DNA of 64,000 nt from Brachyspira murdochii DSM 12563 (GTDB lineage: Bacteria > Spirochaetota > Brachyspiria > Brachyspirales > Brachyspiraceae): assembly GCF_000092845.1 (NCBI RefSeq), contig NC_014150.1, positions 2,541,510 to 2,605,509 on the forward strand, written 5' to 3'. Shown here one piece after another: positions 14,451 to 54,274 of the stretch (position 1 is the first letter of the stretch; each line of letters starts with the position of its first letter). The notes below the pieces were generated by a model. That model saw only the letters and a list, made by a program, of their open reading frames with translations. It was not told where the DNA came from and ran no database searches. The position numbers and the translations under genes were made by a program.

Positions 14451-14630
14451 TGTTTTTGTGTTTTAATTTAGTATATGCCTAAACAAATATAGTTTGTAAT
14501 ATTTGGCTAAGTGTACATAGTGAGCATTCTGAGTGTATTTGTAAAGGTAGATTAAATTTTATATATTACAATACATTTAATATGTATTTTTTTAATATAA
14601 AGTTATAGCAATTGCATTTTATGCGAAGTG

Positions 14631-14685
14631 TGCCGACGAAGTACTCCTGCGGCTGAAGGAAGTACAGTTAGGTATGTCGTTGGCA
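14631..14685. other. GC-rich nested hairpin in AT-rich intergenic DNA
   Basis: TGCCGACG at 14631 pairs with CGTTGGCA at 14678-14685 (one G-U). Inside it, TACTCCT at 14642 pairs with AGGAAGTA at 14657-14664 (one bulge). The block stands out by composition from its surroundings. It could be a structured RNA or a dispersed repeat; no gene starts directly after it. Confidence 0.4.
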
Positions 14686-15291
14686 AAAACTTGCGTGTGC
14701 GGTAAAAAAGTTAATAATTTCTATGAAAAGTGCATCAGTTGATAAAATAAAATTGTTCCAGTATATACTAAATTTAATAATTTATTTCATATGTAAAATA
14801 TAATTTAGTATTATTTTTAGACTTGCACTTTTTTGGCTCTTTGGGAGAAGTATGCCGTTCTATGTGCCATAGATAAGCGAATCTGGAAAAAATTAATAAA
14901 AAATTGATAAACTTAAAAGTTTAACGAATTTTTTAAAATCTATAAGAAAGCGGTACAAGGCTTTATTTTTATTGCAAGACAAAATACAAGCAGGAATCAA
15001 ACTATTTGAGAGATAGTTTTTCACACTTGTACCGCATTTCAAGCTTATTAAAATTAAAGAACAATTACTGTTATTTTTCTTCTGAGCATACAACTCTTTT
15101 GAAGATAGTATTATACTTCTATCCACTTTCATATTGATTCCTTTAATGCTTCAAAAGTTTCTCAGGCTTTTGTTTTTGATGCATTTTATAATTTGTCTTG
15201 CGTTAACTAATATACACAAAATAATTTTAAAGTCAACAAAATAAAAAAAATTTTTAAAACTAATTTTTTAATAAAATAAATTTGATTTTTT

Positions 15292-15372
15292 AGTAGGTAG
15301 GTGGGTAGGTTTGTATGCAGTTTTTGGCACATTTCTTGCAGTAGGTTAACTACTACTACTTACCTACCTACT
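15292..15372. repeat. inverted repeat with telomere-like AGGT units
   Basis: AGTAGGTAGGT at 15292-15302 and ACCTACCTACT at 15362-15372 are a perfect 11-bp inverted pair. The left arm continues GGGTAGG and the inner right flank contains AACTACTACTACTT. It lies in gene-free DNA left of the integrase. Its role is unknown; recombination or transcription termination are options. Confidence 0.6.
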
Positions 15373-15657
15373 TTTTAACTTTCTTTTTGATTTAAAGATT
15401 TTAAAAATAAAAAATTAGAAAACATAGTTATCTAGTATTTATAAAAAAGCCGTGTTTTTGAAGTTTTTTAATCAGGCATACATAAATCTATATTAAACCT
15501 AAAAAAGCCCTAAAAACAAGCCTCTACGCTTCAAATAAAACCATTCAAATCAAAAATCAAAACTCAATTTTTAATGATGTTATCGCAATAGCATAAATTA
15601 AAAATTAAAATAGCTCCTAATAGAAAAAAGGCAGTAAATAAAATCATAATTTTTTAT

Positions 15658-15874
15658 AGTAAAGTGTGCAAAACGTGCATGTTCATTTCGAGCATCTTAA
15701 CTAGTAAAGTGTACAAAGCGTGCATGTTCATTTCGAGCATCTTACCAGTAAAGTGTACAAAGTGTGCATGTTCATTTCGAGCATCTTACCAGTAAAGTGT
15801 ACAAAGTGTGCATGTTCATTTCGTGCATCTTACCAGTAAAGCGTACAAAGTGTGCATGTTCATTTCGTGCATCT
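15658..15874. repeat. five tandem copies of a 44-bp repeat beside the integrase gene
   Basis: Copies begin at 15658, 15703, 15747, 15791 and 15835 (the first is 45 bp, the last is missing its final bases). Each begins AGTAAAGTGTACAAAG and contains GTGCATGTTCATTTCG. Copies differ at a few positions only, with no unique spacers, so this is a tandem array and not CRISPR. The array ends 111 bases beyond the integrase stop. Iterated protein-binding (arm) sites for the recombinase are possible but unproven. Confidence 0.9.
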
Positions 15875-15985
15875 CATAAAAAATACCAAATCAATTATAA
15901 AAAGTTAAATCAAAAAGTTTTTATTCTTCAGGAATATATTATTTATAAATATCATAATATAGTATGGTATTTATATATAGCCTAG

Positions 15986-17134
15986 CTATCTATTTTTTAT
16001 ACTCAGTTTATCAATCCTGTTATTAAGCTCATTCATTTTGATGACTATTGTATTAAGTGTATTTGTTATATTTTCTTGAAAGTCATTTTTTATATTTTTG
16101 ATTTCATTATCTCTATTTATTTTTTCTGTATTTGCTTTATTGAATGGGTGATTACTCATTGCATTTTTTATCATATTCATAAGCACATAAATATATCTGC
16201 TCGTTGTTGTATTAATATTTGAATGTCCCATCATCTTGCTTATTAAATAAGTTTCTGTTCCGCTTTCTGCCATATCAGTTGCAAAACCACGTCTAAAAGA
16301 ATGGCAGGTTATTTTTACCTTATTTCTTTTTGATATTACTCTCATAATCATAGTCATAGTTTCTATTGCTAAATCCTGACCATTATTTTTTATAAAAAGA
16401 TTATTCTGTTCTTTAATTTTATTTTTTCTTAATATCTCATCACGCTCTGCTATATAATCAATTAATACATCTTTGATCATATCAGAAAAAACAACTATGC
16501 GAGGCTTACTTCCTTTGGTTTTATAAATAGTTATAGTTTTGTTTTCAAGATTAATATTTCTAATATCTATTCCTGCAGTTTCCTTTCTGCGAATGCCTGT
16601 GTTTGACATTAAAAGCATCATTAAAATATTTCTTTGATTTGTGAAACTTTCTTTTGAAGTTCTTTCTATTTTTTTTATGATATCTAAAGTTTGATTTGCT
16701 TTTATCACCAACTGCTCTTTTATTATTGGCTTTGGTCTTTTTATATCATCAAAAGTATCTATCAATATTTTAGCTTCTATTATTTTTTTCTTATGCAAAA
16801 ACTTCAGATAACTTTTAACAACATTTATTCTGCAGTTGATAATATCAGATGATAATTGATGTTCTGTTTGGTATGATATATATTTTTCTAATAATTCTTT
16901 ATTTATATTTTTGTATAGAACTTCAGTACTACAAATATATAGATAATCTTTTTCAGCGAAAATAGAATAATCATTATCTTGCTTAATTATGAACTTAAAA
17001 AAATATATAATATTATTTTTATAAGTTTTTACAGTTGATGGGCTTTTATCTATAGAAAGATAATCAGAAAATTGAATAATAAAATTGACATCTTTGGAAT
17101 AATCATAAAGATTATATTTTTCAGCATTAAGCAT
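15986..17134 (-). CDS. tyrosine recombinase / phage-type integrase 1
   Basis: About 382 residues from the ATG at 17134; an earlier ATG at 17149 overlaps the GGAG that looks like the ribosome site, so I prefer 17134. The N-terminal SAM-like DNA-binding domain (DYLSIDKSPSTVKTYKNNI) precedes the catalytic domain. Active-site residues are visible: Arg in NTGIRRKETAGI, Lys in TKGSKPR, HSFRRG (His-x-x-Arg), the later His in MMGHSN, and the Tyr nucleophile in TSRYIYV. A coiled-coil tail follows, which is unusual for an integrase. It is a candidate for integrating this prophage or a separate left-end element. Confidence 0.88.
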   Translation of the reverse strand: MLNAEKYNLYDYSKDVNFIIQFSDYLSIDKSPSTVKTYKNNIIYFFKFIIKQDNDYSIFAEKDYLYICSTEVLYKNINKELLEKYISYQTEHQLSSDIINCRINVVKSYLKFLHKKKIIEAKILIDTFDDIKRPKPIIKEQLVIKANQTLDIIKKIERTSKESFTNQRNILMMLLMSNTGIRRKETAGIDIRNINLENKTITIYKTKGSKPRIVVFSDMIKDVLIDYIAERDEILRKNKIKEQNNLFIKNNGQDLAIETMTMIMRVISKRNKVKITCHSFRRGFATDMAESGTETYLISKMMGHSNINTTTSRYIYVLMNMIKNAMSNHPFNKANTEKINRDNEIKNIKNDFQENITNTLNTIVIKMNELNNRIDKLSIKNR

Positions 17135-17136
17135 AA

Positions 17137-17199
17137 AAAACAACTCCATTTTTATTCTAAAAAATTTGCTTGACTTTTGAAAAAGAATAGAGTTGTTTT
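17137..17199. promoter_or_regulatory. inverted repeat across the integrase 1 start region
   Basis: AAAACAACTC...ATTCT (17137-17158) and AGAAT...GAGTTGTTTT (17184-17199) form a broken palindrome around TTGCTTGACTTTT. It overlaps the integrase start and upstream region, so it could be an operator or part of a recombination site. Confidence 0.45.
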
Positions 17200-18504: not shown

Positions 18505-18547
18505 TTAAAATTATAATATTAAAATAAATAATATCAAGGAGTTGTAT

Positions 18548-18733
18548 ATGGCTAATGAATTAGAAAAAAAAGAAGAGTTAAAAAAAGCACCCAAAAAACT
18601 GCACTGGGCTTTTACAGCCCCAGAAGAATGTATTAATGAAATGAAAGACTATGCAAGAAAGTACAATATGTCTTTAGGCGAATATATAGAGGCTATTCAT
18701 AAAAGATATTTAGAAAGCATACAAAAAAAATAA
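18548..18733 (+). CDS. small ribbon-helix-helix-like protein
   Basis: 61 residues. The ATG at 18548 follows AAGGAG by 6 bases; the open frame from an upstream TTG is not needed. A charged Lys/Glu N-terminus (ELEKKEELKKAPKK) precedes an RHH-like core: strand LHWAFTAPEE, helix CINEMKDYARKYN, turn MS, helix LGEYIEAIHKRYLE. RHH proteins are DNA-binding dimers, often antitoxins or phage regulators. It lies 91 bases after peptide A in the same direction, suggesting a two-gene unit. The same peptide/RHH order recurs at 41.6-42.0 kb. Confidence 0.55.
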   Translation: MANELEKKEELKKAPKKLHWAFTAPEECINEMKDYARKYNMSLGEYIEAIHKRYLESIQKK

Positions 18734-20068: not shown

Positions 20069-20968
20069 TTAAATTGCTGGCTGTTTAGGACATTCAAAAT
20101 ATATAATATTTTCTTTATTTGCTATTAATCCATTAATTGCTATATAAGCATAAAGAGGTCTTTGATTTACAGTTTGTATTGTATATCCTGAATATTCATA
20201 GCCTTTGCCATTTTCAAAAAAATCTTCTATATTGCAATTTACATAAAAATTAACAGTTGTGTTTGGTGGGGTTATTGAGCCTTTTAAAATATATTTTCCA
20301 CCTATTAAGTGAATACCAAAATCCTCTGACATATTGTATCTAACAGAATTAGCATATCCTATATCATAAGGACATATTACATTAGGATTGTATATTTTAT
20401 CTGAGCTTATATTAATATTTGCCGATTGATTTTTACCCAATATAAAACATATATATAAATAATTATTTTGATAAACTGAGAAATATTGTGTTCCAGTTGT
20501 TTGATTCATTATTAAACCAACTAATTTTCTAGCATCTATATTTAATGTTTTATTAACTCTTATAACAGATGCTTCTGCTGAACTTATAAGTTCAATAGTT
20601 CCAAGAAGATATAAAGAACCATCACTTTTTTTTATTAATTTTACTTGGCTTAAATCTCCAAAGCAATTACTATTAATTTCTATATCAGATTCTCCATTAT
20701 TTAAAGTAATTGTAGTCTTTTCAAATGAATATACTTCCTCTTCAAAAGTTTCTCCAGTATCAGAAGGCGGTTTAATCACAGAGCCGCTTTCCAAAGCAAG
20801 CAGACGTTCATGAATATCTTTTATAGTTGCAACAGGAGCTTCATTAGCTTGTCCTCCTTTTATTTTTTCTATATTTGATATTATTTGATTAATATCTTCT
20901 GCATACACAGTTTCTTCGCTTTGCCTTGCAGATACTTCTTTATATTCGTTAGGTTTACTTAAAGCCAT
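20069..20968 (-). CDS. putative tail fibre / receptor-binding protein
   Basis: 299 residues. The N-terminal 70 residues (PNEYKEVSARQSEETVYAED ... INQIISNIEKIKGG) resemble the phage-attachment end of short tail fibres, with a helical segment ending ERLLALESG. The rest is beta-rich, with no Cys and many Ser/Asn, consistent with a fibre shaft and tip. Location after the spanin genes is unusual for a fibre but common for late moron-like fibre genes. Function is inferred from composition and position. Confidence 0.5.
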   Translation of the reverse strand: MALSKPNEYKEVSARQSEETVYAEDINQIISNIEKIKGGQANEAPVATIKDIHERLLALESGSVIKPPSDTGETFEEEVYSFEKTTITLNNGESDIEINSNCFGDLSQVKLIKKSDGSLYLLGTIELISSAEASVIRVNKTLNIDARKLVGLIMNQTTGTQYFSVYQNNYLYICFILGKNQSANINISSDKIYNPNVICPYDIGYANSVRYNMSEDFGIHLIGGKYILKGSITPPNTTVNFYVNCNIEDFFENGKGYEYSGYTIQTVNQRPLYAYIAINGLIANKENIIYFECPKQPAI

Positions 20969-32617: not shown

Positions 32618-34021
32618 TTATATATTTGCATTTATATTTACTTCTATATCTTTTACAATATCTTCACTGCCTGTTTTTTTAGCTGTGATTTTTAATGTAG
32701 CTGTACCTTCTGCCTTTCCTGTGATAGTGAAAGTTTTAGTTTCAGCTTCATAGCTCACATCAAAAAACTGCTGGTCTGGAGGCTCTACTGTATGTGTTAT
32801 CTCGTCAGCATTTGAAGTTAATACTACAGTATCATTTTCATCTGCTCTTATATCTACATTTGGTTTATCACTTTCTAAAGTTAAAGCTTCTGGAACCGCT
32901 TGTATATTAATAGATATATCTTTAGTAATATCTTCACTGCCTGCTTTTTTAGCTGTGATTTTTAATGTAGCTGTACCTTCTGCCTTTCCTGTAATAGTGA
33001 AAGTTTTAGTTTCAGCTTCATAGCTCACATCAAAAAACTGCTGATCTGGAGGCTCTACTGTATGTGTTATCTCGTCAGCATTTGAAGTTAATGCTACAGT
33101 ATCATTTCCATCTGCTCTTATATCTACATTTGGTTTATCACTTTCTAAAGTTAATGGAACATTAGGTTCACTTTCTGTATCTGATGTTTCCTCTTCTGTA
33201 TCTTTTATTTCTTCTTCATCTTTACCTACAGACTGTTCATCTTCATACCATGCAAGCTGCTCTCCGCTTTGCTGACTGCCTGCTAAAGTCGCTGAGAAAC
33301 TTAATTTCCCTACCAACACATCCTGTGCTTTATCAGAAGGGAAGCTAAACTCTAAGCCGCCTGCTATTGAAGCCTGCGGTAAATATATTCTTAATTCTTT
33401 ACTCTCAGCATTAGTATTAACTATCATTATGCATTTAGGTTTGATTGTAGAACTTTTTCCTCCTGTTGCCATGCGTACCATTTTAGGCATAGTTCTAGTA
33501 TATGTAATAATTAAAGTATCTGTGCTAGGAGATATTTTAGTATCTGTAATTTTTATTCCATTAGTTCCTATTTTTTCGTAGCTTGATTCTTCTATGCGAA
33601 TATTTCCCATAGAGTTTTTCTTTTCTACTTTAGTTATTGTTACTTCGCTTCCGTCTGCATTTCTAAATGGAACTTTTATTTCTTCACCTCTTTTATATGT
33701 ATCTGATTCTACTATATACTGTTTTGTAACTTCTGTTTTACCATCATAGCTGTCTATATTATCTATACCGCCTCTTGCCTCAGCATAGTTTTTGAAATTA
33801 ATTTCTAAACTGTCAAGAGTTAATTCCATTTTATGTTCTGTCACTAAAGTAGCTATAGTTCCTGCATTGTCGCTTTCTATATCTGATGTAGTTATAGTTT
33901 CTTTTACAGCAACACTGCGTGCTGCTCCTATATTTATAAGTTTATCAAATCTATCTCCTATCAAAACTTTGGCACTTCCGTATCTTATTGTTTTTTTTTC
34001 TTGCACACTTGTTTGACTCAT
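32618..34021 (-). CDS. major tail protein with duplicated Ig-like domains
   Basis: 467 residues. The first 265 residues form the tail-tube part (KKTIRYGSAKVLIGDRFDKL, IETLT/ITTSDIESDNAGTIA-like strands). An acidic linker (DEEEIKDTEEETSDTESEP) leads into two almost identical Ig-like domains (residues 290-379 and 380-467), each starting LTLESDKPNVDIRAD and containing FDVSYEAETKTFTITGKAEG. Ig domains on tail tubes often bind host surface sugars (known in other phages). The duplication is 270 bp in DNA and recent. Confidence 0.82.
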   Translation of the reverse strand: MSQTSVQEKKTIRYGSAKVLIGDRFDKLINIGAARSVAVKETITTSDIESDNAGTIATLVTEHKMELTLDSLEINFKNYAEARGGIDNIDSYDGKTEVTKQYIVESDTYKRGEEIKVPFRNADGSEVTITKVEKKNSMGNIRIEESSYEKIGTNGIKITDTKISPSTDTLIITYTRTMPKMVRMATGGKSSTIKPKCIMIVNTNAESKELRIYLPQASIAGGLEFSFPSDKAQDVLVGKLSFSATLAGSQQSGEQLAWYEDEQSVGKDEEEIKDTEEETSDTESEPNVPLTLESDKPNVDIRADGNDTVALTSNADEITHTVEPPDQQFFDVSYEAETKTFTITGKAEGTATLKITAKKAGSEDITKDISINIQAVPEALTLESDKPNVDIRADENDTVVLTSNADEITHTVEPPDQQFFDVSYEAETKTFTITGKAEGTATLKITAKKTGSEDIVKDIEVNINANI

Positions 34022-42090: not shown

Positions 42091-42102
42091 TTGGAATTCA
42101 TT

Positions 42103-44121
42103 ATGTATGTAAAAAAAGAAAGTAAATTAATAAAAGTAAATGGAAGATTAATAACAAATTCTTTAGTAGATAAAAGCAATACTTTTTTAGCTTTATGTGA
42201 ACTTATAAATAATTCTATTCAAGCATCTGCAAATAATATAGAAATAAATATGACATCTGATTCTGAAGGTGAAATGATAAAAGATAGTATAACTTCTTTA
42301 TCAATAAAAGACGATGGAGAAGGTGTATCTCTTAGTGATTTTCAAAAGAAAATATTAGAAATAGCTACAGACATAAAACCTAAAGGAAAAGGAACAGGAA
42401 GATTTTCAGTCTTTCAATTTGGTAAAACTGCTTATTTTGAAACAGTTTCTTATGATAAAATTTTAAATAATTATACAAAGACATCATGTACATTAAATTT
42501 AAATGAACTTCAAAATGGATATATAGATAAAGAAGTAGAACTTGAAAGTTATATTTTTAATTCAAAAAAGGATACATATTTTTTTATAGAAGTAAGAGAC
42601 ATATTTACTAAAGATTATGAAAATTATAACAGTAGAAAACATAAAATTTGTGATGCATTAAAAACAGAAAATATAGGTTTATCATTATTTACTATGTATC
42701 CTATAGAAATGTTAGATAAAAATATTCAATTTTTTGTAAATGGTATAAAAATTGATACTAAAAACTATCAGTTGGATAGAAACAAATTTGAAAGACAATA
42801 TAACGATTATTCAATAGAATATGATGTTATAGAACATAAGTCTAAAAAAAAGAAAGAAGAAAAAGTACTTTGTATAAGAACTGAAAATAACAATATAAAA
42901 AATATATTAAATTATTTTGATATAGAAATGGATATACCTTATAAAGAAAAATCGGAAGTTAGTTGGCATATATATGTGGATTCTGAATACATAGATAAAA
43001 ATGTAGAATCATTTGAAAATATAGATTTAAAGGATATGAATATTGATGTAAAAAATTTTTTAAATCAAATAGAAACAGATATCAAAAATTTTTTCTTAAA
43101 TAATTATGAAGAATATTTTAATTTTAGAGATAAACTAATAAAAAATGATAACTATCCATATAAAAACAATATTAGTTCATCTAAAAGTAAAGAAATAGCA
43201 TTTATACAAATAGCGTATTCTATAGAAGATAAATATAAATTATTGTCATCTAATAATAAAGATTTGATGAAAATTATTTATCCATTATTAGATGGTTGTT
43301 TAGATAATCCAAATTTAAAAAAAATAATTAATAGTATTAATACGCTAAAAAAAGAACACATCAAACAATTTGAAGAATTAATAGATAAAACAGAATTAGA
43401 TGAAGTTATAACTTTTTCTGATAATGTTGCTAATAAAATGGCATTTTTAGATTTTTTACATGAAATTAATTATAGTGATGATATATCTAAATATATATTA
43501 GAACGTAAACAGTTACATAAAGTACTAGAGAAAAATTTATGGATATTTGGAGAACAATATATTTATAGTAGTGCTATAATAGAAAGTGATACTAATTTAG
43601 GAAAAAATTTAGAACGATTACGAGCAAATATTATGAAAAATAATTGTGAAGAGTTTGATGAAATAAAATCAGATGATAATATAACAAAAATAACAGATTT
43701 ATTCTTTTATTCAGACTTTAAATTTAATAAAAAACATGAGGTATTAGTTGTAGAATTAAAGAGACCTAGTGTTAAATTGGGTAATAAAGAAATTGAACAA
43801 GTAAAAAGATATGGATCTGAGATATCAAAATCCAGTAGTATAAGTAAACAAAATGTAAATTTTAAAATCATATTAATAGGTTCAAGTATTAATGAAGATG
43901 ATGCAATATATATAAGCAATAATGAACCATTATATAAAACAGGAAATATTGAAATATGGGTAATGAACTGGGCTGATTTAATAAAAGAAAATAGAGATAA
44001 ATTAACTTATATGAGTAATGAAATAAAAGTTAAAGATAATTATATATTAAATAATATTGAAAAAAAATATCCTGAAATAAACTTCAATAATATTAAATTG
44101 AAGTTAAATGTGAAAAAATAA
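42103..44121 (+). CDS. GHKL ATPase fused to Shedu-like PD-(D/E)xK nuclease
   Basis: 672 residues from the ATG at 42103; the open frame begins at an upstream TTG. The N-terminal ATPase has the N-box LALCELINNSIQA (Glu33, Asn36/37), the G1 box KDDGEGVS (Asp70-Gly74) and the G2 box KGKGTGRFSVFQFG (95-108), as in Hsp90/MutL/MORC. The C-terminus has LEKNLWIFGEQYI (476-488), then Asp532 in ITDLFFYSDF and Glu551-x-Lys553 in VVELKRPSVKL. This is the DUF4263/Shedu nuclease pattern. It probably cuts DNA under ATP control in phage defence. The gene is strikingly AT-rich (7 G+C of 60 at 43081-43140). Confidence 0.72.
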   Translation: MYVKKESKLIKVNGRLITNSLVDKSNTFLALCELINNSIQASANNIEINMTSDSEGEMIKDSITSLSIKDDGEGVSLSDFQKKILEIATDIKPKGKGTGRFSVFQFGKTAYFETVSYDKILNNYTKTSCTLNLNELQNGYIDKEVELESYIFNSKKDTYFFIEVRDIFTKDYENYNSRKHKICDALKTENIGLSLFTMYPIEMLDKNIQFFVNGIKIDTKNYQLDRNKFERQYNDYSIEYDVIEHKSKKKKEEKVLCIRTENNNIKNILNYFDIEMDIPYKEKSEVSWHIYVDSEYIDKNVESFENIDLKDMNIDVKNFLNQIETDIKNFFLNNYEEYFNFRDKLIKNDNYPYKNNISSSKSKEIAFIQIAYSIEDKYKLLSSNNKDLMKIIYPLLDGCLDNPNLKKIINSINTLKKEHIKQFEELIDKTELDEVITFSDNVANKMAFLDFLHEINYSDDISKYILERKQLHKVLEKNLWIFGEQYIYSSAIIESDTNLGKNLERLRANIMKNNCEEFDEIKSDDNITKITDLFFYSDFKFNKKHEVLVVELKRPSVKLGNKEIEQVKRYGSEISKSSSISKQNVNFKIILIGSSINEDDAIYISNNEPLYKTGNIEIWVMNWADLIKENRDKLTYMSNEIKVKDNYILNNIEKKYPEINFNNIKLKLNVKK

Positions 44122-44167
44122 TTATTAATTATATATTAATATAAAATAAATATTTTGGGAATACATT

Positions 44168-46027
44168 ATGGAATATGAAAAACTTATTACAAAATTAGCA
44201 TATGATTATAACATATTTAATAAAGATTCTAGTATAGAAAATATTTTAGAGCTTTTTAAAGATACAAATGAAATTAGTATTAAAGAATTAAATTTATTAA
44301 TATTCATTATTATCAATGAAAAAAGTTACTCTAATTTTTGTAAAGAATTAAAAAATATAACTAACATATATTCAGATGAACAATTAAGTAGTCTATTTTT
44401 AAGTTTTATAGCAATTGCTAATTCTGATAGCATAGATATCACTATGCAGTATAGAAATAAATTAGAAAATGAAAAAGAATTAAATATGGTATCTATGACA
44501 AATAGTAATATAAAATTAGAAAATAATTATTTTTCATGTAATGATATTATTGACACTACTGTAGATCTTTTAGACTTTAATTTTAAATTATTTAAGTATA
44601 TAACTAACAATAAGGAAATAATATCATCTACTATCAATTATATGAATATTGATCTAGTAAGAGAAAATAATAAATTTTTAATTTTAAAAACTATTTATGA
44701 ATATATATGTTTTGAAAATGCATTTTTATCTGAAGTTAGTATTTATAAATATAAAATAGAATATAAAGATAAGTTTCATATATTAAAATATATTAATTTA
44801 TTGAAGGTTAATGAAAAATTAATATCTTCTCTAATGAATACTCATAACTTGAAAATATATTATTTTGATAACATATACATAGAAAATTTAAAAATAAACG
44901 AAATGACTGGTGAAATATTTTTTGATATAGAAAAAAAGTCGGTAAAAAATATGTATATAGAAGGTAGAATGAAATTATATATAAATAGTTTAGTAATATA
45001 CCATTATTACTATGATAAAAATTATAATGATATGGCACTAAATTTTTTCAGAGTGTTTATTGCATTAGATTATATACTATACAATGTATCAAATTATATA
45101 ACTGATACAAAGCATAATATCAATTTTTATTTATTTAAAATAAATAAAAAATTACTATCTGAATATTGTACAAAAATAACTAATTTAGATAGTAATATTT
45201 GTGATGATATAATAGAATATTTAACTTATGATAATAAATCTAGTTTTTGGAATAAACCTTTAATAAAAAATGGTGATTTTTATCATTTATTAATTACACC
45301 TATAAAATATGGCAATATTATATTTATTGTAGATGAATATATGAATAATAAAACAACTTGTTTTAAAGATAAAAAAGGAAATCTATTTGAAAAATTTGTC
45401 GTAGATGAAATTACACTTCTATTATCTGAAAAAAAATTTTTTTATAAAATAGATCATGGTAAATATAAAATTTCTAAAAAAGAGATGGAGGAAATAGATT
45501 TTATATTAGAAACAAAAAATACAATTATAGTAGCTGAAATTAAATGTATTAGATATCCATTTAATTCACAGTTAATACAAAGATATGAAACTATTATTAA
45601 TAAAGCGGTTGATCAAATAATAAGAAAAACTACATTTTTAATAAAAAATAATAAAAAATTTCAAAATAAAAAAATTTCATTTCAAAATAAAAAAATTATT
45701 AAATGTGTTATAACAAATTATAGTTTATTTTCTGGAACAGAAAGATCTGGAGTTTATATTATAGATATAAATATGCTTCGTAAATATATTAATGTTGGTA
45801 AAGAAGGATTTATCAAGTATGACTTAAGTACTAGAGAAAAACATGAAATAGCTAAAAACTTATATAATACTGAAGATGAATTTTCTAATAACTTTGAAAT
45901 ATATTTTATGAGCTCAAATTCTTTTTATGAAGATAGAATTAAAATAATAACTAAGAAATTAAAAATAGGAAATTTTGAAATATCTATACCTACAATAATA
46001 GAGAATAAATTGTTTCATTACGAATAA
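44168..46027 (+). CDS. large protein with C-terminal PD-(D/E)xK nuclease domain, cassette partner
   Basis: 619 residues. The first ~390 are helical and match no family known to me. The C-terminal part has the nuclease core: Glu408 in GNLFEKFVVDEI, Asp444 in MEEIDFILET and Glu457-x-Lys459 in IIVAEIKCIRYPF, then a helix RYETIINKAVDQIIRK, as in NERD-like or restriction-type nucleases. It lies 46 bases after the ATPase-nuclease gene with its own GGGA ribosome site, so the two are likely one operon. It is very AT-rich. A joint defence role is inferred. Confidence 0.62.
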   Translation: MEYEKLITKLAYDYNIFNKDSSIENILELFKDTNEISIKELNLLIFIIINEKSYSNFCKELKNITNIYSDEQLSSLFLSFIAIANSDSIDITMQYRNKLENEKELNMVSMTNSNIKLENNYFSCNDIIDTTVDLLDFNFKLFKYITNNKEIISSTINYMNIDLVRENNKFLILKTIYEYICFENAFLSEVSIYKYKIEYKDKFHILKYINLLKVNEKLISSLMNTHNLKIYYFDNIYIENLKINEMTGEIFFDIEKKSVKNMYIEGRMKLYINSLVIYHYYYDKNYNDMALNFFRVFIALDYILYNVSNYITDTKHNINFYLFKINKKLLSEYCTKITNLDSNICDDIIEYLTYDNKSSFWNKPLIKNGDFYHLLITPIKYGNIIFIVDEYMNNKTTCFKDKKGNLFEKFVVDEITLLLSEKKFFYKIDHGKYKISKKEMEEIDFILETKNTIIVAEIKCIRYPFNSQLIQRYETIINKAVDQIIRKTTFLIKNNKKFQNKKISFQNKKIIKCVITNYSLFSGTERSGVYIIDINMLRKYINVGKEGFIKYDLSTREKHEIAKNLYNTEDEFSNNFEIYFMSSNSFYEDRIKIITKKLKIGNFEISIPTIIENKLFHYE

Positions 46028-52031: not shown

Positions 52032-52883
52032 TTAAGCAGTTATTAATTCTTTATACTTCTGCATTTCTATTTCTATAATTTTCAAGTTTAATAGTCTGCT
52101 TGTAAGTCTGCCTTTCATATATTCAGAATCAGTTTTTTTATTCAAACTCTTTAATAAATCATCATAGCTTTTATTTGATGTCAGTATCACAGTTTTTTCT
52201 CCGCTTCTTATATTATCAAATATTTTATAGTATCCATCTATGGCATAATGAAAACCTACGCTGTCAATATCATCTATCATAATAATATCTGCATTTTTGG
52301 CATTATCTATTTTTTTATCAATAGCAGCTTTCATATCTTTATCTTTAGCATTTTGATTAAATAAGTTTTTATGCAAATCTTCAAAATGGCTAGCCTTCAT
52401 ATACATTACTTTGATGTTATTAATAGCATATATCTGCCATAACATTTTTAGCATTGTAGTTTTACCTGTTCCGCTCTTCCCTCTGAAATATAATGACATT
52501 GTACTTCCTACATTCAAATATTTTTTTATAGAATTAATCAGCTCAGTTTGATTAAATCTTTTTGCAAAAATATCCAAAGTTATTTCATTATCTAATGTGC
52601 CGAATACTAAATTATATGTTTTTATAAGGTTATCAATTCTTTCTATCTTTTCTGATATTTTAGTTTTTTCATCGCTTACACAGTCGCACATAGTAGGCAG
52701 ACTGTATCGTCTTCCTGAAAAACTTAAATCATCTGGAACTTTTAGAAATCCATACTCATCACATTTAGTACATTTTGGGTCTTTTCCGTCCCTTGCTATT
52801 TTTTTTAATTCTTCCAAATATTTTTTATAGCTTTGCAGACAATATCCGTTATCCGCAATTTGCAATTTGTGAATACGCATCAT
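52032..52883 (-). CDS. DnaC-like helicase loader ATPase
   Basis: 283 residues. Cys pairs (CTKCDEYG and MCDC) form a probable zinc site in the N-terminal part. The AAA+ core has Walker A YFRGKSGTGKTTMLKM, Walker B ADIIMIDDIDSV and sensor 1 VILTSNKSY, with Arg-finger region RLTSRLL. It loads the host replicative helicase on the phage origin, with the initiator encoded upstream. The start overlaps the initiator stop by 35 bases; other ATGs nearby are possible. Confidence 0.85.
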   Translation of the reverse strand: MMRIHKLQIADNGYCLQSYKKYLEELKKIARDGKDPKCTKCDEYGFLKVPDDLSFSGRRYSLPTMCDCVSDEKTKISEKIERIDNLIKTYNLVFGTLDNEITLDIFAKRFNQTELINSIKKYLNVGSTMSLYFRGKSGTGKTTMLKMLWQIYAINNIKVMYMKASHFEDLHKNLFNQNAKDKDMKAAIDKKIDNAKNADIIMIDDIDSVGFHYAIDGYYKIFDNIRSGEKTVILTSNKSYDDLLKSLNKKTDSEYMKGRLTSRLLNLKIIEIEMQKYKELITA

Positions 52884-53739
52884 CTAGGTTTCCTCCTTCT
52901 TCTATAATTTTTAATAAATAATTCAGTTTATCAATTCCGCTTGGTATTGTGTATTTTTTTGTTTCTTCGCTTTGAGTTTTATTTTCTTTGTTATCATTAT
53001 TTTTTGTACTTTCATTTTTTTGGCATAAAGCCATTTTCAATAAATCCTGCAGTTTCATAGCATATCTTTTTTCTACTGGTAATTTATAAAATGCATTTTT
53101 TGTAATTTCTAAAACATCATCAATATTGTTATTTACTCTGTTTTTAAAGATTTTTATTAAATGCATTTTATAAGGAGCTCTTGCCGAGTAGTCTAATTTT
53201 TCAAGCAATAATTCTTCATACAATTTTTTAAACTTTTCTAAAAACTCATTTTGAAGCTGAAGCTCTTTTATCTCTTTATCATCTGTTAAAAGTTTTGCAG
53301 GATATATTGGATTTTCGTCCACATCTTCATTAAACAAACTAGGCTCATCATATATCACAGTAACAGGAGCTTCGAGATTCTGAAGTTTTTTATCTTCTTC
53401 TTTCAGCTCTTCAATTTTATTTTTCAAATTAGTAAAGTCATATACTAATCCTACTTTTATACATCGTTTGTCTTTATATGTTCTTGCTATTTTTATTTTC
53501 AAATAGCCTTTTGCCTGCAGGCTTTTTCTTTGTCTTGTGCATCTTCTGCTGATATCTTTATCTCTAATTTCATTAAAATCTTTATTTACTAAATGAAATA
53601 TCCAGCATATAAACTCAAACTCGCTTGTTGTTAATCCTAGTCTAGTTCTATATTCAAGCACTTCAAAAGGTGTTGTTAACAAATCTGCAGGATAATCTAT
53701 TTTTCCGTAAAGTGCCGAAAACTTTTCTAACTCTGCCAT
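52849..53739 (-). CDS. phage replication initiator (DnaD/winged-helix type)
   Basis: 296 residues. The N-terminal winged-helix part (FEVLEYRTRLGLTTSEFEFI, DKDISRRCTRQRKSLQAKGY) resembles replisome organiser proteins, and a helical C-terminal part with coiled coil (NKIEELKEEDKKLQ) follows. Directly upstream of a helicase loader, it is probably the origin-binding initiator. Its ATG overlaps the stop of a 16-codon leader peptide. Confidence 0.68.
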   Translation of the reverse strand: MAELEKFSALYGKIDYPADLLTTPFEVLEYRTRLGLTTSEFEFICWIFHLVNKDFNEIRDKDISRRCTRQRKSLQAKGYLKIKIARTYKDKRCIKVGLVYDFTNLKNKIEELKEEDKKLQNLEAPVTVIYDEPSLFNEDVDENPIYPAKLLTDDKEIKELQLQNEFLEKFKKLYEELLLEKLDYSARAPYKMHLIKIFKNRVNNNIDDVLEITKNAFYKLPVEKRYAMKLQDLLKMALCQKNESTKNNDNKENKTQSEETKKYTIPSGIDKLNYLLKIIEEGGNLDDAYSQIANCG

Positions 53740-54062: not shown

Positions 54063-54274
54063 TTTATCGATTTGTATTTTGAGAGAAGATTGTAAAACTC
54101 GTACCGCTTTCCATAGTCTTAGAAAATTCGTTAAAATTAAAAATTTTCAGTATATACCTAAATACAGATTGTCAAAAGTAAATCATAAATATTAAAAAAT
54201 CTATTAATTAAGAATTTTACATTATTTTAATATGGTATATAATAATTCTTCAAAATGAGAGGTAATAAGAAACT

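Follow-up and report, generated by a model that had tools for sequence, protein, structure and literature searches.

Replication of lambdoid phages starts at several repeated binding sites for an initiator, the O protein, which lie beside an AT-rich stretch. According to the accessible text of one report, the number of these iterons varies (4 or 6), and their sequences hardly differ among the phages it compares (PMC7466680); the accessible text of another reports competition by extra origin copies in lambda (PMC4488673). A second kind of system pairs DnaD or DnaD-like initiators with a loader of the DnaC/DnaI type. Tandem direct repeats are also found in temperate phages as actinophage parS loci with diversifying ParB, as set out in the available part of PMC7157519. 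For Brachyspira, the available part of Hafstrom 2011 describes three related prophages in B. murdochii, pM1-pM3, and pP1 of B. pilosicoli (PMC3163572). A literature search on Brachyspira prophages and phages, including parts of PMC3163572 and PMC8845278, turned up no arrays like the one reported here, which is not proof of absence; in the accessible text of PMC3163572 the array is unmentioned, and the sole match to "repeat" concerns ankyrin.

Here we analysed a 64,000-nt stretch of Brachyspira murdochii DSM 12563 DNA (the window), in which a tandem array sits within a ~39-kb prophage bounded by inverted repeats (Table 1). Our best explanation, held tentatively at a probability of about 0.45, is that the array constitutes the iterons of the prophage replication origin, bound by a DnaD-like initiator encoded by the same element. 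The sequences show the layout of the locus, a core word common to the arrays, complete turnover of the units, a resemblance in fold and co-variation in one group out of two, whereas excision, binding, unwinding and origin activity are inferred. The locus resembles the lambdoid origin in its repeated putative sites, its candidate initiator and, less distinctly, an AT-rich stretch beside the array. Unlike the lambda origin, which lies inside the O gene, the array is at the prophage end opposite the initiator gene, and its unit is replaced wholesale between elements, whereas the lambda-type iterons compared in that report are nearly constant. The N-terminal winged helix of the candidate fits DnaD best and a loader gene is adjacent, as in DnaD systems; it differs from these in its 13-20% identity to DnaD chains, in having no Pfam DnaD match and in a recognition helix that varies between near-identical phages.

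Table 1. Features of the prophage discussed in the text (window positions)
Feature	Positions	Strand	Remarks
Small ORF crossing the left end	14893-15132	-	79 aa; no Pfam match
Left prophage end	14920-14932	+	TTTAACGAATTTT, then GCGGTACAAG
Conserved promoter-like site	15209-15236	-	TTGACT-16-TATATT; in 20/21 leaders
Sigma54-like promoter	15325-15339	+	TGGCACATTTCTTGC; faces array; inverted simple-repeat arms on either side
Block kept in both phage groups	15465-15597		CTCTACGCTTCAAATAAAGCC ... TTATCGCAA
Tandem array, class c1	15658-15874		4.9 x 44 bp, imperfect dyad unit; proposed iterons
AT-rich gap, array to integrase stop	15875-15985		82.9% AT; candidate unwinding element
Integrase 1, tyrosine recombinase (PF00589)	15986-17149	-	
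DnaC-like helicase loader	52032-52883	-	
Proposed replication initiator	52849-53739	-	DnaD-like winged helix, variable recognition helix
Right prophage end, inverted copy	54098-54135	-	CTCGTACCGCTTTCC ... AAAATTCGTTAAA

The array and its surroundings in the prophage

A sequence-only reading of this DNA had reported five 44-bp tandem repeats starting 111 bases after the integrase stop, and both statements proved correct. TRF resolves 4.9 copies with a period of 44 (95% matches, score 369), and a repeat search gave five copies of 43 nt that match the reference copy at 84-95% identity, at spacings of 45, 44, 44 and 44; because the integrase ORF is on the minus strand, the gap between its stop and the array is 111 bp. 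Searching the whole genome (3,241,804 bases) with the right half-unit at up to 3 mismatches returned five matches, every one inside the array, and the reversed-pattern control returned none; at the sensitivity used, the array is unique in its own genome. Rfam gave no matches at the gathering threshold in the window, and a known RNA or tRNA was rejected as the identity of the array, none being detected there. Elsewhere in the prophage, TRF marks a near-perfect 270-bp tandem duplication (32645-33154; 96% matches, 1.9 copies) that overlaps a phage ORF (32618-34021).

The prophage carries genes for portal, capsid, protease, terminase, tail tape-measure protein, GH19 lysin and SSB. Its ends, at 14920 and 54135, are inverted copies of TTTAACGAATTTT...GCGGTACRAG; their joining would give a symmetric site of the type used by tyrosine recombinases, and these inverted repeats are likely the integrase core sites. 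Left flanks mostly differ between elements, which points to integration at many sites, although 000c and 015b have a common one. This genome holds three prophages of the family (that of the window, hereafter WIN, 000b and 000c), which probably correspond to pM1-pM3. All three contain GHKL-ATPase and NERD-nuclease cargo, possibly a defence pair (42091-46027 in the window; 99-100% identical over 92-100% of the length), to which the other stretches, some of them incomplete, gave a single match, 36% to the first gene, in 010. A second tyrosine recombinase, mid-phage (46228-47175), has counterparts in eight further elements (004a, 000b, 000c, 004b, 007, 010, 025 and 019), 74-100% identical along the entire protein. 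Just outside the left end lies a dispersed repeat (14553-14831) with many matches in most genomes of the genus, at 68-91% among those listed.

The gene content also bears on a partition-like site, which the sequence-only reading had raised. As a parS-like partition or incompatibility site of a plasmid-like phase, the array would have its parallel in the actinophage loci, likewise tandem repeats in temperate phages. Here, however, a Pfam scan of 36 distinct proteins of the window, 32 from the prophage, matched no ParA or ParB family, the elements examined are integrated, and units measure 23-55 bp rather than the 8 bp of actinophage parS, leaving this reading very improbable.

Next to the array, the 100 bp directly past the array interval used are 86% AT (a value reached by 2.4% of 783 intervals in this prophage), against 61% for the array itself. 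The corresponding right-hand 100 bp are 79-86% AT in 9/11 elements (74% in 007, 76% in 010), with a background of 72-75% and left flanks of 76-82%; the flank TCAATTATAAAAAGTTAAATCAAAAAGTTTT of the gap is conserved in related elements. Some elements carry small cassettes between array and integrase (L018, L037, L014, L017, L038), containing terminator-like hairpins (GGGTAAGG...CCTTACCC) and, judged by eye, a short RHH-like protein and small hydrophobic ORFs; the interval is an insertion hot spot. An integron with an attC array was considered, small cassettes being present in some elements, and rejected: the integrase is Xer-like and scores 55.8 bits against TIGR02249, whose cut-off is 265.

On the other side of the array, the leader contains two promoter-like sites. 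The sigma54-like pattern occurs in 9/10 leaders of group A, the phage group of the window, and in 0/11 of group B; the tenth group A leader, 022a, is one spacer base off, and a sigma-54 gene is present in the B. murdochii genome. The arms around this site (15290-15380) vary by element (GTAGGTAGG, GTAGTAGTGG, GTCAGTCTG), yet remain roughly complementary. The second site reads leftward and, in the integrated prophage, aims into host DNA; the initiator gene would come within its reach, across the attachment site, only once circularization has joined the ends. With conserved promoter-like sites in the same leader, the array might instead be an operator or enhancer cluster through which the winged-helix candidate or another phage regulator controls either promoter, and hence the lysis-lysogeny choice. 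The available text of a paper on B. hyodysenteriae prophages does call a winged helix-turn-helix protein, which may or may not be our candidate, a transcriptional regulator (PMC8845278), and in group B the array does not track the initiator. We nevertheless consider such a role unlikely, given that the array is placed ~420 bp upstream of the early promoter (15209-15236) and that the best fold match of the protein is DnaD, with a loader gene alongside.

Array replacement at a fixed position

To place the array among its relatives, we used 22 integrase loci from 26 Brachyspira genomes (at least 50% identity over most of the protein); two further integrase matches (G006:C2 and G025:C3:5-460) are partial. 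Array position is fixed in all 22, with the integrase stop on one side and the conserved leader on the other, and TRF detects arrays in this place in 19/22, the remainder comprising single units (022a and 002b) and irregular short modules (019). Periods differ between elements (23, 43-45 or 55 bp). Class c1 (44 bp) is found in WIN, 004a, 014a, 002a and 022a, class c2 (55 bp) in 005a and 022b, and class c3 (45 bp) in 000b and 015a; group B arrays, beside integrases that are ~50% identical, have several kinds of unit, of 23 bp or of 43-44 bp. Around these completely different units the leader blocks and right flank are conserved, and this wholesale replacement of the array at a fixed spot is the unusual part.

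Within class c1, copy number runs from about 1 to 7 among prophages, which fits both the variable-number locus that the sequence-only reading had suggested and an array of repeated binding sites. A DNA search of the 26 genomes with the c1 array found matches in five, each at an integrase locus and none at an unrelated one. Arrays other than c1 were located through the integrase, so that their neighbourhood is no independent evidence. No genome has two elements of one array class, which holds for 8 genomes with at least two arrays and is not significant (hand estimate about 0.37). IMG/VR yielded two integrase loci and one initiator locus; the partner was absent from each of these records, and none linked an array with an initiator; a phage collection search gave no matches.

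The unrelated arrays nevertheless have a word in common. With no word set beforehand, a search detected CAAAATG in 9/10 array classes (60 shuffles gave a mean of 4.4 and a maximum of 7) and CAAARTG in 10/10 (mean 6.0, maximum 8), the ten class representatives being chosen by hand and two of them, 018a and 005b, having 26% of their 8-mers in common. CAAARTG, here picked after inspection, is found at least once in 21/21 arrays against 0.01-0.09 expected. The arrays of tandem short units share this word; in 018a and 004b it is confined to the last partial unit, and in 000c-type arrays to the terminal flank. This word in all classes, the fixed position and the group A concordance described below argue against a functionless, fast-turning tandem repeat near an AT-rich spot; we regard that reading as quite improbable, even though copy number varies within one class and group B units are replaced wholesale with the winged helix little changed.

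Folding of the repeats touches on whether they serve the integrase, as accessory (arm-type) or structure-specific sites. Compared with shuffles, folding is stronger for the whole array (z -4.7) and for the units of c1, c3, 018a and 024 (z -2.9 to -5.0), with a less clear difference for 007 and 005b (z -2.3); c2, 025, 000c and 010 units have no notable folding (z -0.7, -1.2, -1.1 and 0.6). Since several units fold no better than shuffles and others clearly do, hairpin (structure-specific) recognition was rejected as a general rule. The array does lie beside the integrase in 22/22 loci, although these were located through the integrase, and integrases that are 97% identical (WIN/000b and WIN/005a) face arrays sharing no 8-mers. 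Sequence-specific integrase binding is disfavoured because the units wholly differ beside such integrases and conserved flanks; moreover, inverted core-like repeats, likely the core sites, are at the prophage ends. Binding sites for the recombinase, another proposal of the sequence-only reading, are accordingly highly unlikely.

A DnaD-like candidate initiator

Homologues of the candidate initiator occur in 16/26 genomes of the genus, in 25 element stretches, with three truncated or interrupted (018b, 002d and 010). The right-end motif was found by pattern in 21/25 stretches, the right ends of 000c and 015d align in BLAST to a leader as well, and the left ends of the 009 and 005d stretches were not found by the end pattern. 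The predicted model is a weak one, with a mean pLDDT of 52; it shows a winged helix at residues ~31-118, for which N-terminal domains of DnaD are the top structural matches (Foldseek probability 0.99-1.00, E 0.005-0.03, with no match reaching E 0.001). VIA-align to DnaD gave Z 9.5 and an rmsd of 3.0 over 93 residues, and other winged helices came next at Z 7.5, so that the margin of DnaD is modest. The variable segment of the protein is the recognition helix and wing. Against Pfam, Phage_rep_O was matched by 6/13 homologues (best E 0.051) and outscored by the implausible TAFII55_N (8/13, best 0.0098). The loader gene directly follows the initiator gene; judged by homology and fold resemblance, the same element encodes both a candidate initiator and a loader.

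On the origin reading, the phage would excise and its ends join, which would place the array about 1.1 kb from the start of the initiator gene [(15658-14920) + (54135-53739)]. The initiator would then bind the repeated units through its winged helix and open the adjacent AT-rich stretch, and the DnaC-like loader would be recruited and place the helicase.

Co-variation of array and winged helix

Judging from sequence comparison, array class and the DNA-binding domain of the candidate initiator tend to change together, in one of the two groups. In group A, array class matches winged-helix type in 6/6 placed prophages. The pairs are contiguous in WIN, 004a and 000b and were connected through adjacent flanks in other genomes for 022a+022d, 005a+005c and 002a+002c; among the matches listed, the distance between the 005a and 005c flanks is 0.7-2.5 kb in 8/9 genomes having both and 36 kb in G018. 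In addition, 005d was joined to 005b by empty sites. The arrays of 015a, 022b and 014a are unplaced, the 015a and 015c halves being at different sites. Array similarity follows the winged helix (r = 0.98, p = 0.067; partial 0.056), in contrast to the C-terminal part (r = 0.39, p = 0.27), significance being limited by n = 6. A possible exception is G022, in which both initiators are T1 and one of two arrays is class 2, its partner being unplaced.

Pairwise comparisons separate the two parts of the protein. WIN and 002a/002c have the same array class and a winged helix 100% identical, with a C-terminal part at 76%, whereas for WIN and 000b the C-terminal part is 98% and the winged helix 71% identical, and the arrays have no common 8-mer. 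The latter two are nearly identical over the replication genes and diverge at the DNA-binding domain, the array and the cassettes beyond: identity dips to 66% across the recognition region (53480-53579) and 24-56% across the array (15619-15868), is 74-100% in between (81-100% up to 15568) and drops to 0-4% beyond 15919, where 000b carries cassettes. In the control comparison, WIN and 004a are 92-100% identical except beyond 15919 and in one interval within the array (33%), where copy number differs. WIN and 000b are also unlike in tail and cargo genes.

In group B, by contrast, array and winged helix are not associated across 7 elements, 019 being excluded (r = -0.26, p = 0.97). The array is identical in 004b and 018a, whose winged helices are at 83% identity, 004b and 025 have winged helices 99% identical and unrelated arrays, and 000c, 007 and 018a, at 96-97%, have three unrelated arrays. 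This mismatch could reflect binding based on the core word, exchange of arrays faster than that of initiators, or another binding protein, and because the pairing fails in this group the initiator link is a best guess. Two genes are present in 004b and 018a alone of ten elements, one encoding an adenine methyltransferase of the D12 type and the other a protein of 281 aa with no Pfam match; the gene in the place of the latter in the window (20069-20968) is 34% identical over 42% between WIN and 004a, despite their same array class.

A bolder form of the origin reading, which we consider doubtful, is a hypervariable origin. Unrelated arrays would be swapped in at a fixed spot with flanks and integrase nearly unchanged, the initiator would re-tune mainly its recognition helix, and sister prophages, such as the three in this genome, would keep separate origin identities and avoid mutual initiator titration. 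If true, these elements form a natural series of matched initiator/origin variants in near-identical phage backgrounds, making initiator-iteron specificity, and selection by sister-prophage competition, directly testable.

One other potential array partner, a small protein (18542-18733) taken as ribbon-helix-helix by eye only, was rejected because 014a, 000b and 007, whose arrays fall into three classes, have it at 96-100% identity. Finally, and in favour of the origin reading, a 25.5-kb contig (G006:C2) encodes a stand-alone 145-aa winged-helix homologue corresponding to the initiator N-terminal domain (L175:2913-3350), immediately next to the conserved block and an array.
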